33,269 nucleotides of DNA from Acidobacteriota bacterium (GTDB taxonomy: Bacteria > Acidobacteriota > CAIWXX01). This document shows, piece after piece, positions 27,013-33,086 of this stretch (positions are counted from its first letter, which is position 1; the number at the start of each line of letters is the position of its first letter). Below the pieces are notes generated by a model. That model was given only the letters and a program-made list of their open reading frames with translations, was not told where the DNA came from and ran no database searches. The stretch spans positions 1 through 33,269 of the forward strand of contig JACPPM010000187.1 of the NCBI GenBank assembly GCA_016191015.1. The letters run 5' to 3'. A program made the position numbers and the translations under genes.

Positions 27013-27147
27013 GGCTCAACCGAGGACAGGAGGGACGTGGATTGTCACAGGGCTGATCATGATTGAGGGGCCTTCGCCGCTCCCGAAGACATGGCCACGT
27101 TCGCTCTCGTGAACAGAGCCGGATTGGAAACAGCGTGTTGTGGTGTG

Positions 27148-27160
27148 AACTGAAACAGAT
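27148..27160. repeat. 13-base string shared with the left window end
   Basis: AACTGAAACAGAT occurs here and at 26-38. It lies about 100 bases outside the istB stop codon, where the end of the IS21-type element is expected. It may be part of the terminal repeats of this element and of another copy cut by the window edge. Confidence 0.3.
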
Positions 27161-27258
27161 ATGACGGTGGGTTGGGTGTTGGGCGCTGGCAGCCTACCGG
27201 TGAGCAAGACCGGGCACGCGGTGCCGAGCGGTGTGACGGGCCTGTCGGTGTGGCGGTG

Positions 27259-27988
27259 TTATCCGGTTGGTTTTCGAAGGGACGGCCCTTTGATGTGGAT
27301 TGTGTGGCACTGGTGGCGGAGTCGGCTGAGAAGGGCATCGACCATGGAGCGATTACCGAGGAAGTTGGGCCATTCCTCATATTCGAGATTCGAGGTGACG
27401 ATCGTAGAGAACCGCCGGTAACGCTCTTCCATCAGCTTGAAGAAGATATTGGATTGTTCGGGCTTAGGATTGAGGTAGCCCAGCTCATCGATGTGCAGGA
27501 TCGGGAGACGAGCAAGCCGGTTGAGGAGCCGACGTGTGGAGCGATCGGCAAGCGAGGCGTACATTTCGTCGAAGAGATCCTGCGCTCGAATGAAGAGGCC
27601 GCGGTAGCCGTTTTGCAGAGCCTTCAACAGGAGCCCTGAGGCGAGTCCGGTCTTTCCGACGCCCGTGGGCCCGATGAAGACGATGTTCTCGGCCCGCGGG
27701 ATGAACTCGAGCTCCGCCAAGCTCATGATCTCTCGTCGGTTGACGCCGGGCTGGGAGCTTGAAGGGGAAGGACTCGATGGTCCACTGCTCCGGCAAACGT
27801 GCCTGTTTGATCCGCCAGGCGAGAGCCGTCTCCTGACGATTGTGCCACTGAGCGCGCAGGAGTCGCAGAAGGAACTCGGCGTATGAGGAGTCCTCTTTCT
27901 GCGCCTTCGCGATCTCCTGGGGCAACATCTCGGCCATGCGTTTGAGGCGAAGGTTCTTTGCGAGTTGTTCGAGCTCTTCATTCATCAT
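27259..27988 (-). pseudogene. istB: IstB transposition helper ATPase, frameshifted
   Basis: IstB is the AAA+ ATPase that delivers the IS21 transposase to DNA. The ATG at 27988 opens NEELEQLAKNLRLKRMAEML and SSYAEFLLRLLRAQWHNRQE up to TIESFPFKL; here one extra C (CTCCCAGCC, near 27755) shifts the frame. The other frame continues QPGVNRREIMSLAELEFI, Walker A FIGPTGVGKTGLA, Walker B ILHIDELGYL, and a normal end SRLRHQCHTIHIKGPSLR. Without the extra base the protein would be complete, at about 240 residues. The start overlaps the istA stop by ATGA. Either a recent frameshift or a sequencing error in the C-run explains it. Confidence 0.85.
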
Positions 27989-29397
27989 CGTGGTATGTCC
28001 TCTGATACCGGGTCGTCTCCAAGAAGGAAGTAGTCGCGGCGGATGTTGCGGAGGATCACCGTCTCCAGCCGATCCATGTCATAGAGTCCGGATCGGGAGG
28101 CCGCAGCGATGGCCTCAAGAAGCGGTGCTCTCGGGTACTCACGCACCATACGCAGGAGTTGCCGCAGGGAGAGAGTTTGTTGAAGGGATCCACCTCTTCT
28201 CATTGCCGCCAAGTAGTCAGAGAGCTCCGGAGCACGGCGAAGGATCTCCTCTTCCTCGGCGATTGCGTGACGGTGATCTTTGGATTGGCCCCGAGGTGGC
28301 CGGTGTGATGCCTCCACGACCTGCGCCCGCTTCGGATCGATTTCGCGTTGGTGGGAGGCCACTTCCCGCGGGCCCTCGTAGACGGTGACCCGATCCTTGC
28401 TCACGCGTACTTCGACTCGGCGGCCGATCAGTCGAGCCGGAACCGAGTATCGATTTGTCTGGCTTGAGATGAAGCCGTCGACATCGACGATGCGTGAATG
28501 AATCTCATAGGGATCGGGTATCCACGCGGGGAGCGGTATCAACCGTGCCTGTTCCACTGCGAAGAGCTCCCGCGGGCGTGCTCGCAAGTGTCGCTTGAAG
28601 GATCCGTTGACCCTGTCACACCACTCGCGGGCATGGCGATTGGCATCCGTCCAGTCGGCGAAGCTGCGTCCGGCAAGAAAGTTGTTTTCGATGTAGCCGA
28701 AGGGCCTTTCCACGCGTGCCGACCGATTGGCATCACCCTTCTCATGCGCGCGGAACTCGAAGCTGAATCGGTGGGCGAAGGCTTCCATCTCGGGGACTGG
28801 CACCATGTCGGCCCCGGTGCCTTTGAGAACCACGACATGAGTGTTGTCGATCATACAGCGGCGGCAACTTCCTCCGAAGTACCTCAAGGCGTCAGTCAGG
28901 AAGAGCTTGCAATCGAACCGTCGGAAGGTCGGGTAGAACTGGAAGAAGAGCATTCGCGAGTAACAGAGGACGAGGCTTGCTGTCTGCACGCGCCGCAGAC
29001 AGTCGCCAATTCTCGCCTCGTGCGGCGAGGTGTCATGCTGCATTTCTTCTCCCGGCGCGAAGTCGTAAGAGCCTGCCGGTGTCTTCTCGTGCGAAGAGAG
29101 ACCGTGACGGCGACAGAAGCCGGTGAGAGCCTGGTAAGAGAAATCCGCGCCCGCCTTCTGCAGCTCCTCGTGCACACGCACCAAGTTTCCTTTGCAGACG
29201 GCGATCAGCTCCAGAATGTGATCACGATGCTCTTCGGCTCTCTCGGGCCGCACGAGTCTGGGCACCTCCGATGAACCACTCCCGATCACTTCACCAACCG
29301 CTCCTCTGGAGACTCCGAGCAGCTTCGCGATTCGTCGACGGCTCTGCCCGCGCTCAGAGAGCTGCAGGATCGTGAGCCGCAACTCCTGATCCAACAC
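27985..29397 (-). CDS. istA: IstA transposase (DDE) of an IS21-type element
   Basis: This 470-residue DDE transposase has an N-terminal HTH (LTILQLSERGQSRRRIAKLL, GVSRGAVGEVI) and the catalytic acidic residues in GEEMQHDTSPHEARIG, CMIDNTHVVVLKG and ARVERPFGYIENNFL. These are followed by the C-terminal DNA-binding region (FISSQTNRYSVPARLIGRRV). The open frame extends to 29526, but AAGGAG stands seven bases before a GTG at 29397 and the protein then begins at LDQELRL, right before the HTH, so I choose that start. It overlaps the end of the ParB-like gene by 44 bases and the start of istB by four, which implies translational coupling. It seems intact. Confidence 0.9.
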   Translation of the reverse strand: MLDQELRLTILQLSERGQSRRRIAKLLGVSRGAVGEVIGSGSSEVPRLVRPERAEEHRDHILELIAVCKGNLVRVHEELQKAGADFSYQALTGFCRRHGLSSHEKTPAGSYDFAPGEEMQHDTSPHEARIGDCLRRVQTASLVLCYSRMLFFQFYPTFRRFDCKLFLTDALRYFGGSCRRCMIDNTHVVVLKGTGADMVPVPEMEAFAHRFSFEFRAHEKGDANRSARVERPFGYIENNFLAGRSFADWTDANRHAREWCDRVNGSFKRHLRARPRELFAVEQARLIPLPAWIPDPYEIHSRIVDVDGFISSQTNRYSVPARLIGRRVEVRVSKDRVTVYEGPREVASHQREIDPKRAQVVEASHRPPRGQSKDHRHAIAEEEEILRRAPELSDYLAAMRRGGSLQQTLSLRQLLRMVREYPRAPLLEAIAAASRSGLYDMDRLETVILRNIRRDYFLLGDDPVSEDIPR

Positions 29398-30274
29398 TGA
29401 GGATCTCCTTCGGAATTCTTCGAGAGAGTCGATCCATTTCCACTCGGACTCGTTGGAAGGTCTGGCGAATCTCGTCCTGATCACACGCTGGCAGTGGCGG
29501 TCCTTCCTGCAACTTGCCTTCGGCACGTCGAGCGACCAGGACCAGGATGTCCAGGTCGCGAAGCAGAGAAACGATCAACGCCTCAGAATGTTTCAGGTCC
29601 AGATCGCCCTGGCTCCGGAGAAAGAGGAGCGGTTCAGAGACGATGCGCGCGCGCCCTTCTGATGTGCTTCCTCGCCACGCTGCATAGAGAGCCTCCACTT
29701 GGCGGCTGCTTACCCCCTTCCCGGCGATCCGTTGGGCCAGGAGCCGGCTCTGCATCCGGTTGGCGCGCGCCAAAGGGACGAAGTATTTCATCGCGGCGTA
29801 GGCAACGATCTCGCCGTTGCGCACTCGCTCCTGGATCTCTTCGGGAAGCTCCTTGACCAGTGCCAGTCGACGGCTCACCCAACTCACGCTCCGATCAAAG
29901 CGCCGCGCCAGCTCCTCAAGCGAGAGCGCGAAGCGTCCAACCATCTCGCGCAGCAGCCATCCCTGTTCAAGGGCTGTCTCCGAGGTCCGAGTGCGCATGA
30001 ATCGATCCAGAAGAAGCGCATCGGACTCACTCAGGTCCCAGTGTATCGCGGCCACCGTGTCGTGACGAAGCTGCCGGAGACCTCGAACCCTCTTGTAACC
30101 GTCGACGACCGTGAAGCGCGCTGGGTCGGAAGCGGCGACGACCACGATCGGCATCAGTTGACCCGATTGGGCGAGCGATGCCAAAAGGCGCTTCTCAACT
30201 CCCGGCCGCCTCACCCGCAACCCCTCGTATCGAAGATCCAGTTGTTGGAACTCGAGATCCATAGCACCCTTCAT
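29354..30274 (-). CDS. ParB-like protein within the IS21-type element
   Basis: This 306-residue protein has the ParB/RepB/Spo0J layout. An N-terminal ParB/sulfiredoxin-like domain (EKRLLASLAQSGQLMPIVVV, then ARFTVVDGYKRVRGLRQL) is followed by a KorB-type HTH (FALSLEELARRFDRSVSWVS, RRLALVKELPEEI) and a helical C-terminus. True chromosomal ParB has GERRxRA in the second box; here it reads GYKRVRGL, as in divergent mobile-element ParB-like proteins. It lies between the Cys-rich gene and istA, with its end overlapping istA, so it belongs to the element's operon. A second ATG 12 bases downstream is a possible start. A role in target choice or DNA bridging for transposition is inference. Confidence 0.85.
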   Translation of the reverse strand: MKGAMDLEFQQLDLRYEGLRVRRPGVEKRLLASLAQSGQLMPIVVVAASDPARFTVVDGYKRVRGLRQLRHDTVAAIHWDLSESDALLLDRFMRTRTSETALEQGWLLREMVGRFALSLEELARRFDRSVSWVSRRLALVKELPEEIQERVRNGEIVAYAAMKYFVPLARANRMQSRLLAQRIAGKGVSSRQVEALYAAWRGSTSEGRARIVSEPLLFLRSQGDLDLKHSEALIVSLLRDLDILVLVARRAEGKLQEGPPLPACDQDEIRQTFQRVRVEMDRLSRRIPKEILSVGSGVAAHDPAAL

Positions 30275-30311
30275 TTACGGACGCAGAGGAAGGGCGATTA
30301 GGTTGGGCTTA

Positions 30312-30752
30312 TCAACGCCTGAGAGGTCTGGCTCCACGTCTCCCCCGTGTCGCTGGCACCCGAGTGAGCCGCCCGTCGCGAACTTCACCCCGGCACGCAC
30401 GCCCACAGAAGTCGCAGCTAACCATTCCATCAGACCCTTGGCCTTCCCCAGTCCCCCTTTCCCCCGCGCCCTCGCTCTCATGTGAAATCGAGTTTGCGCC
30501 TGTGCCGGCGCTAAGAGAAGACTGGTGCGTCACTTTCTTTCGATCGCGATATCGCTGCTGGCGCGCTGCATGGTTGAACCGCCCGCCTCTGGTAGCCTGA
30601 TAACGCTTCCCAGCTTCGCGCCGATGCTCGCGTCGGCTCCTCACGGCACAGAATCGGCCACAGTACTTGTTGCCGTGATCGCAGTACGTGCAGATGTGCA
30701 CGACCCTCTTACATCGTCGGCACTCGTACCGGCGGTAACTGTTCTCGGGCAC
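30312..30752 (-). CDS. Cys-rich zinc-finger-like protein of the IS21-type element
   Basis: This 146-residue protein begins at GTG 30752 (MPENSYRRYECRRC). It has paired cysteines in YECRRCKRVVHICTYCDHGN and KYCGRFCAVRSRREH, enough for two zinc sites. A strongly basic stretch follows (GRFNHAARQQRYRDRKKVTH), as in DNA- or RNA-binding proteins, and a last Cys pair in CDFCGRACRGE. I recall short proteins of this type next to IS21-like genes in other bacteria but cannot name a family. It is the first gene of the four-gene operon. Its ribosome binding site lies in the 3' arm of a perfect hairpin (30755-30774), so translation is probably held down. Confidence 0.75.
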   Translation of the reverse strand: MPENSYRRYECRRCKRVVHICTYCDHGNKYCGRFCAVRSRREHRREAGKRYQATRGGRFNHAARQQRYRDRKKVTHQSSLSAGTGANSISHESEGAGERGTGEGQGSDGMVSCDFCGRACRGEVRDGRLTRVPATRGRRGARPLRR

Positions 30753-30754
30753 TC

Positions 30755-30774
30755 CCCCTCGCCGCTGCGAGGGG
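30755..30774 (-). promoter_or_regulatory. Hairpin hiding the ribosome binding site of the IS21-type operon
   Basis: On the minus strand CCCCTCGC, loop AGCG, GCGAGGGG forms a perfect 8-bp stem that ends two bases before the GTG start codon. The GAGGGG of the 3' arm is the ribosome binding site. Similar hairpins protect transposase genes of IS10 and IS50 from read-through transcription. Confidence 0.6.
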
Positions 30775-30845
30775 CTTTACAAAGCCGCCGAGAAACGCCA
30801 TGCTCCCTGTCGGCGACCGTCGCGTGCCAACACGACGGGACACCA

Positions 30846-30883
30846 GGAGGTCCGGTGGCTGTGGTGCCTTTGGCCGGACCTCC
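30846..30883. repeat. 10-bp inverted repeat near the right end of the IS21-type element
   Basis: GGAGGTCCGG (30846-30855) and CCGGACCTCC (30874-30883) are perfect reverse complements, 18 bases apart. They lie between the IS21-type operon and the merR fragment. They may be an old terminator, an operator or part of the element's end. Confidence 0.5.
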
Positions 30884-31036
30884 GCCCCTCTTCGCGGTGG
30901 GTCTGCTATCTCACACTCTCAAGGCTCAGCACAACCACACGCACCGCTGGCCCCCACAACTTCCTCGAGACGAGCTCTATCCCTGCTCGACCTTCAGAGT
31001 GGCCCCATTCCGCAGAGCACACCCCGGCTATTCCTC

Positions 31037-31393
31037 GTGAGCGGCGAAGCTGGGAACTATCGCCTCTACAATGAACGCGCGCTTGATCGCCTGCGCTTCA
31101 TCCGAGCTGCACAGATCAACGGATTCACGCTTGAGGACGTCGTCACACTGCCCGATTTCCGCGACGGCCGGACATCGCCTTGTCGTGAAGTTCAGACTCT
31201 CATCGAGGCGCGTCTAGCCGATCTGGAGCAGCCGGTCGAACAGATGCGGCACGTCCAGGCCGTACTGAAATCGGCGTTGGCGGTCTGCCGCAAGGCCGAG
31301 CACAACGGCAGGTGCGCGGTGATGGATGACTTGAACCAGGCGTCTTCCGAGCGATCTCCCGGGGTCAGACGGCGGGCCCCGAAGAAAAGGTAG
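31037..31393 (+). pseudogene. merR: merR mercury-responsive regulator without its DNA-binding domain
   Basis: The frame reads GEAGNYRLYNERALDRLRFI and GFTLEDVVTLPDF, the second half of a MerR HTH and the dimerisation helix. It has cysteines in SPCREV, LAVCRK and NGRCAV; counted from the first, they are 35 and 44 residues apart, the same spacing as C82, C117 and C126 of the mercury sensor MerR. The first HTH helices are missing; upstream sequence shows no clear match and leads to the IS21-type element. GTG 31037 could start a truncated protein, which would not bind DNA but might still bind Hg(II). The gene ends 9 bases before a MerR-type promoter on the same strand. Confidence 0.8.
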
Positions 31394-32738: not shown

Positions 32739-33086
32739 TCATGACGACGTAAGGACCGCTGCAAGCGCCTTCGTCACGCCATCGAGGCGCTCGTCCGGCG
32801 ATCCCTCCATGCAGGTATTCACGCACGATCAAATTTCGCTGTCGATGAGAGCCGCAGCGGTCTGATTCAGCTCCGCCTTCACAGCCGCAATCTGAATCAG
32901 GATCTCGTCCGCGCAGCGATGATCCACGACCATCCGCCGGATACTGCGCACGTGACCCTCGATGCGCGCGAGGCGATCGGCGAGCCGTCTCTGCGCTTCC
33001 AGCGTCAGGTACTCGCGCGCTTTTCGAGGATCGGGCAACCATCCAATCAGCAACGCGCCACGAATTTCATATTCGTTACCTGTCAC
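32739..33086 (-). pseudogene. CsoR/FrmR-family metal-sensing repressor with in-frame TGA
   Basis: The minus-strand frame reads RLADRLARIEGHVRSIRRMV, then CADEILIQIAAVKAELNQTA and AALIDSEI, the first two helices of a DUF156 (CsoR/FrmR) repressor. A TGA stop (32829-32831) follows. The same frame then continues SCVNTCMEGS and DERLDGVTKALAAVL to a second stop at 32739, just as a normal CsoR third helix would, so the family length is reached only by reading through. CsoR metal ligands are C, H, C; here the first cysteine (HRCAD) lies before the stop and the last (SCV) behind it, with Glu at the His position. CGA to TGA is the simplest cause. The start at 33086 is uncertain, since about 25 residues precede the usual family start. 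Confidence 0.75.

Follow-up and report, generated by a model that had tools for sequence, protein, structure and literature searches.

A widespread IS21-type clade encoding a zinc-finger-type protein and a ParB-like protein together with IstA and IstB

The four-gene element in the window

The window, that is, the whole 33,269-nucleotide stretch of Acidobacteriota DNA analysed here, carries on its minus strand four genes in the transcription order Cys-rich/zinc-finger ORF, parB-like, istA and istB, which are read from right to left in window coordinates. Gene calls and profile matches confirmed this arrangement as proposed in the original prediction, including the leading position of the Cys-rich ORF. 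That ORF (30312..30752, minus strand) encodes a basic, predicted zinc-finger protein of 146 aa (CRRC...CTYC...YCGRFC plus CDFC) that had no match in Pfam or NCBIfam; its AF2 model is weak (mean pLDDT 68) and, used as a Foldseek query, this weak model retrieved no PDB fold. The second gene (29354..30274, minus strand) encodes a ParB-like protein of 306 aa with a ParB N-domain that keeps Box I and Box II, an HTH_ParB domain (1.2e-07) and a long C-terminal helical hairpin; its match to the parB_part profile (1.6e-15) lies slightly below the cut-off of that profile. The istA gene (27985..29397, minus strand) starts with GTG and overlaps parB by 44 nt, an overlap that had also been predicted. It encodes a DDE transposase of 470 aa, which keeps the catalytic residues D122 (in HDT), D184 (in IDN) and E230 (in VER), matches Mu-transpos_C_2 (2.6e-18) and narrowly passes the NCBIfam IS21 transposase model NF033546 (161.6 bits; cut-off 160). 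Directly downstream lies istB (27259..27988, minus strand), coding for the AAA+ helper ATPase (PF01695, 2.3e-45); it is broken by a frameshift near 27750, which leaves N-part and C-part ORFs in different frames. In the relatives described below, istB is one open frame.

The extent first assigned to the element (27259-30774) was too short. The whole element occupies 27072..31049 (minus strand; 3978 bp; termini 5'-CTTCGCCGCTC...), as defined by a terminal inverted repeat at both positions and by the match to a consensus of 32 relatives. Its left end consists of a terminal repeat, L1 (31026..31049, CTTCGCCGCTCACGAGGAATAGCC), recovered by the terminal-repeat search and in the consensus of relatives, and an inner repeat, L2 (31000..31019, TGCTCTGCGGAATGGGGCCA), identified from the sequence and the same consensus. 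At the right end, the terminal repeat R1 (27072..27096; CTTCGCCGCTCCCGAAGACATGGCC read inwards) was likewise found by both the terminal-repeat search and the consensus, and the inner repeat R2 (27102..27122) by the consensus; a sub-terminal block (27121..27135, GGATTGGAAACAGCG) is the counterpart of a block that is conserved in the right ends of relatives only. All five features are given for the minus strand.

No target duplication was found at the ends of the window copy (27072, 31049), and this copy is the only one in the 6.4-Mb draft genome from which the window comes. Since its istB is frameshifted, a target duplication is absent and the genome holds no other copy, the window copy is probably inactive. 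The MerR-type gene at its right flank lacks the first 31 profile positions; to reconstruct the empty site, we looked for the missing 5' portion at the opposite flank of the element and did not find it, indicating that the insertion site has been rearranged. The MerR-type regulator without its N-terminal part (window 30800-31393) abuts the element end, and a gene for a metal-sensitive repressor (PF02583; window 32829-33086) lies near it; because of this neighborhood, a metal-response locus seems to have been disrupted. Elsewhere in the window, a sulfatase gene (PF00884; 24286-25294) stops after about one third of the domain and runs into an unrelated 100-aa frame, and thus looks like a truncated gene.

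Gene order and ends in related elements

We searched for relatives with two IstA queries, the IstA of the window and that of the Desulforapulum plasmid pHRM2a, disregarding ParB in the search. In a sample of the phylum, IstA matches were present in 8 of 297 genomes, and parB overlapped istA in all 8. When about 85,000 species genomes were scanned by IstA, 208 relatives were returned, and the best 80 of these 208 were fetched. Among the fetched relatives, parB stands in front of istA in 79; the sequence of the remaining one (L110) starts merely 309 nt upstream of istA. The parB frames of three relatives (L094, L100 and L111) are disrupted or unusual. For the zinc-finger gene, we required the pattern C-x(2-4)-C ... 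C-x(2-4)-C in an ORF just upstream of parB, with the opposite strand as control: such a four-cysteine ORF precedes parB in 72 of the 74 elements with enough sequence, compared to 1/74 in the control. Both extra genes lie inside the terminal repeats, and element length in the clade is 3.7-4.6 kb. The source labels of the relatives are mostly Acidobacteria, with delta/Myxococcota, Verrucomicrobia, Planctomycetota, Gemmatimonadota, Chloroflexi and others also represented, although most relatives are metagenome bins, which makes individual phylum labels uncertain.

The predicted four-gene order therefore recurs in other genomes, and the check named as able to overturn the prediction, namely whether copies lack the two genes or carry them outside the ends, did not refute it. 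A widespread IS21-type clade encodes a zinc-finger-type protein, a ParB-like protein, IstA and IstB between terminal inverted repeats, an anatomy of which we are all but certain. The single damaged copy in the source genome might by itself suggest that these are host genes or that their arrangement is due to chance, but this is refuted by the same order in dozens of genomes and several phyla, inside terminal repeats, and we give it practically no chance.

Overlap between parB and istA is near-universal among the relatives, the commonest sizes being 230 nt (42 elements), 44, 8, 146 and 11 nt. These common sizes are all 2 modulo 3, that is, the istA frame is constant relative to parB.

The ends were established in the relatives, where the suggested comparison with empty sites could be made. 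Terminal inverted repeats beginning with CTTC were found in 43 elements, several of them with target duplications of 5-8 bp. Two identical copies in one complete chromosome (G096) have exactly 3894 bp in common, and one of them is flanked by a 7-bp duplication (TCGCGGC). Homologous uninterrupted sites from the same genus aligned without gaps across the joined flanks once one copy of the duplication was removed. The duplications and the identical copies set the termini as CTTC...GAAG, and the four-gene element is an autonomous, mobile element. In the consensus of 32 elements, each end has two repeat units spaced 24 nt apart, an arrangement resembling L1/L2 and R1/R2 in IS21. Many contigs of relatives are about 4 kb long, and some begin and stop exactly at the element ends, which is what collapsed multi-copy elements should look like; chimaeric flanks are possible in these contigs and would account for absent duplications. 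We also observed a conserved block, GGAACA-n-GATT-n-GGAAC, at approximately positions 55-75 inward from the right ends of relatives (e.g., L065, L101). Our scan for this block matched the right end only, and it was rejected as a site common to both ends.

The published description of IS21 gives it just two open reading frames (PMC10122671), and a study of Paracoccus considers multi-ORF structures typical of IS21 and IS66 (PMC3281130). The present clade resembles the IS21 family (IS21, IS5376) in the tandem of an IstA DDE transposase and an IstB AAA+ protein, in the two repeat units per end and in the short target duplications. It differs in the added zinc-finger and parB genes and in being about twice as long. 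A terminal CA has been described for IS5376, whereas the termini here are CTTC...GAAG; we did not take this as excluding membership in the IS21 family. Among the open-licence literature we found no relevant paper that treats ParB together with IS21, and we class the four-gene element as a new variant within the IS21 family rather than a standard member.

Evolution of the two additional genes

An IstA tree with 45 rows places the ParB-bearing elements on one side of a 100/100 branch, which sets the IstA of this clade apart from the other IS21 elements sampled. Those other elements, from the same phylum and from plasmids, lack ParB, with the exception of one deep second lineage. In that lineage (G281; L164/L165), a weaker match, we found a zinc finger, ParB (31%), IstA (27%) and IstB with a 4-nt parB-istA overlap; the IstA of L165 (G281:C322) looks canonical and was placed outside the main clade with weak support. 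ParB may thus have become associated with IS21 before the main clade arose, or on two separate occasions. Within the draw of 297 genomes from the phylum, members of the ParB subfamily were confined to this element, except for a degenerate remnant (G225) and the deeper G281 relative, and a score gap separates them from chromosomal ParBs. No close ParB relatives were found on viral contigs, and a ParB match from Cupriavidus (L022) was rejected as a member, the stretch being without IstA, IstB or zinc-finger relatives.

Estimates of dN/dS between relatives were 0.11-0.32 for parB (overlap excluded) and 0.06-0.17 for istA; parB is under purifying selection. Quantification of pairwise distances over 70 elements revealed co-divergence of ParB with IstA (r = 0.91) that exceeded that of ParB with IstB (0.77) and of IstA with IstB (0.78). 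Co-divergence is not proof of contact, because adjacent genes share their history and linkage alone would raise all three values; greater conservation, or lower variation, of IstB may in addition lower its correlations.

The zinc-finger gene (dN/dS 0.07-0.35) presents a different picture. Its slot holds at least three sequence types, and even within the main type the correlation with IstA is r = 0.57. The window protein is 32-35% identical to same-slot proteins of five relatives (L106, L107, L108, L119 and L111) and, in the better matches, 43-44% identical to those of a different IS21 clade without ParB. Two elements, L120 and L107, agree at 82-87% identity across parB, istA, istB and the two ends, while their zinc-finger regions align at 46% and are of different types, a difference that, judged from these alignments, is a cassette replacement. 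In contrast to the IstA-tracking ParB, the zinc-finger gene thus appears from sequence comparison to be modular and swapped between elements. The co-evolution with IstA that had been anticipated for both proteins was borne out for ParB and not for the zinc-finger protein, which is swapped and also occurs in the ParB-less clade. The proposed coupling of both genes to the transposition unit holds insofar as both belong to the element and are conserved across the IstA clade, but the two genes are not equivalent. The roles first suggested for them, in bridging ends or choosing targets, are so far a proposal.

The ParB-less elements, IS21 of Caballeronia, Paraburkholderia and Methylotuvimicrobium plasmids, share with the window a zinc-finger ORF of the same type directly upstream of istA; they differ in having no parB, a separate 100/100 IstA clade and different ends. 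In such proteobacterial plasmid elements (L024-L034), the Cys-rich ORF before istA is often unannotated, and mostly an ORF of 60-70 aa follows istB.

Possible roles of the ParB-like and zinc-finger proteins

The AlphaFold2 model of the ParB-like protein (mean pLDDT 92.3) ends in a C-terminus of two long helices. Foldseek matched it to Noc, ParB and KorB at E values of about 1e-11 to 1e-9 over the N-domain and HTH, with low global TM-scores. The likeness to ParB/Noc/KorB thus comprises a ParB N-domain with conserved Box I (GQQxP) and Box II (G-x-K-R; G-x-x-R motif) and an HTH_ParB. The differences are that no parA is present, Box III is not conserved, the C-terminus is a helical hairpin and the gene overlaps a transposase gene. 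Box III, the P motif (ENxxR), had no E-N in the alignment to Spo0J and Noc; this box is often absent in orphan ParBs (PMC12704722). Mobile elements commonly carry orphan ParB proteins (PMC12704722), and this, together with the homology to ParB, would fit parB and the Cys-rich gene being passengers, for instance a module for the stability or partition of a circular intermediate. We consider this very improbable: the position of the genes is fixed, parB overlaps istA and its presence is essentially universal. A partition module was rejected, with no parA in the four-gene elements surveyed and no ParA-binding motif (LG-R/K-GL) seen among the conserved positions of the ParB-like protein.

KorB, a ParB-fold protein on mobile elements, regulates genes (PMC12704722). 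The ParB-like protein could likewise be chiefly a KorB-like transcriptional regulator, possibly a nucleotide-switched DNA clamp, that would repress the operon and limit copy number, with the zinc-finger protein as a second regulator. The rank of KorB and Noc among the closest folds, the conservation of Box I and Box II and the operon-like order with overlapping genes all agree with such a function. However, we saw no conserved palindrome near the operon start, where only the left-end repeats are present, and it is not evident why a protein that only binds an operator should follow IstA more closely than IstB follows it. We regard a chiefly regulatory function as possible but unlikely.

The ParB-like protein, the zinc-finger protein or both might instead be a target selector or a target-immunity factor, as TniQ/TnsD is in Tn7. 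The four-gene element shares with Tn7-like elements (TnsB, TnsC, TniQ/TnsD) a DDE transposase, an AAA+ ATPase and a swappable specificity gene; IstA/IstB are related to TnsB/TnsC, Tn7-like elements swap their target selectors (PMC10293859) and cassette replacement occurs in the zinc-finger slot. According to the same survey, no target selector has been reported for IS21 (PMC10293859). Against this proposal, no TnsA or TniQ homologue, no cargo and no fixed target was seen here, and TniQ/TnsD has a core of about 300 aa of helical domains with a zinc finger, whereas the zinc-finger proteins are short (146 aa in the window) and do not match TniQ. Moreover, 27 target flanks of elements yielded no consensus; a site-specific target was therefore rejected, and sequence-specific target choice is not supported at present. 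One sited insertion interrupts gene-like sequence and the window copy cuts merR, with safe-site targeting visible in neither. A selector or immunity factor is accordingly an improbable reading.

We tentatively prefer, at a little less than even chances, that IstA has a core DNA-binding partner in the ParB-like protein and that the zinc-finger protein serves as a module for specificity or regulation that can be exchanged. The ParB-like protein, predicted to be probably a nucleotide-binding dimer, would bind to the element (the repeats or the right-end block, for example) and would help to assemble or license the paired-end complex, while its levels would be matched to those of IstA by overlapping translation. 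From the zinc-finger protein might come added specificity for DNA or protein, be it in target choice, immunity or regulation, in a manner similar to the selector swaps of Tn7-like elements, and IstA would carry out strand transfer while IstB is on the target, the way classical IS21 does. Against this reading, no ParB binding site was found at the ends: the sole end-specific block beyond the IstA-type repeats lies at the right end and, unlike a parS site, is not palindromic. It is doubtful, though conceivable, that the ParB fold has been recruited as a core, possibly nucleotide-switched, transposition component which together with the zinc-finger slot forms a modular targeting or control system not described before.

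Among transposition systems regulated by an AAA+ protein, IS21 is the structural model, and descriptions of it speak of two genes (PMC10122671, PMC10293859). By keeping a ParB-like partner along with a zinc-finger gene that can be swapped, the present clade would illustrate how target choice or control can be added to the IstA/IstB core. If so, the ParB fold would gain a role in transposition that a 2025 survey of the fold, in which the words 'transpos' and 'IS21' are absent, does not mention (PMC12704722). Complete elements whose ends are defined are now available.

In the element of the Desulforapulum plasmid pHRM2a, a CHC2 zinc-finger gene lies directly after istB (L023:7113-7649) and is possibly a fifth gene.
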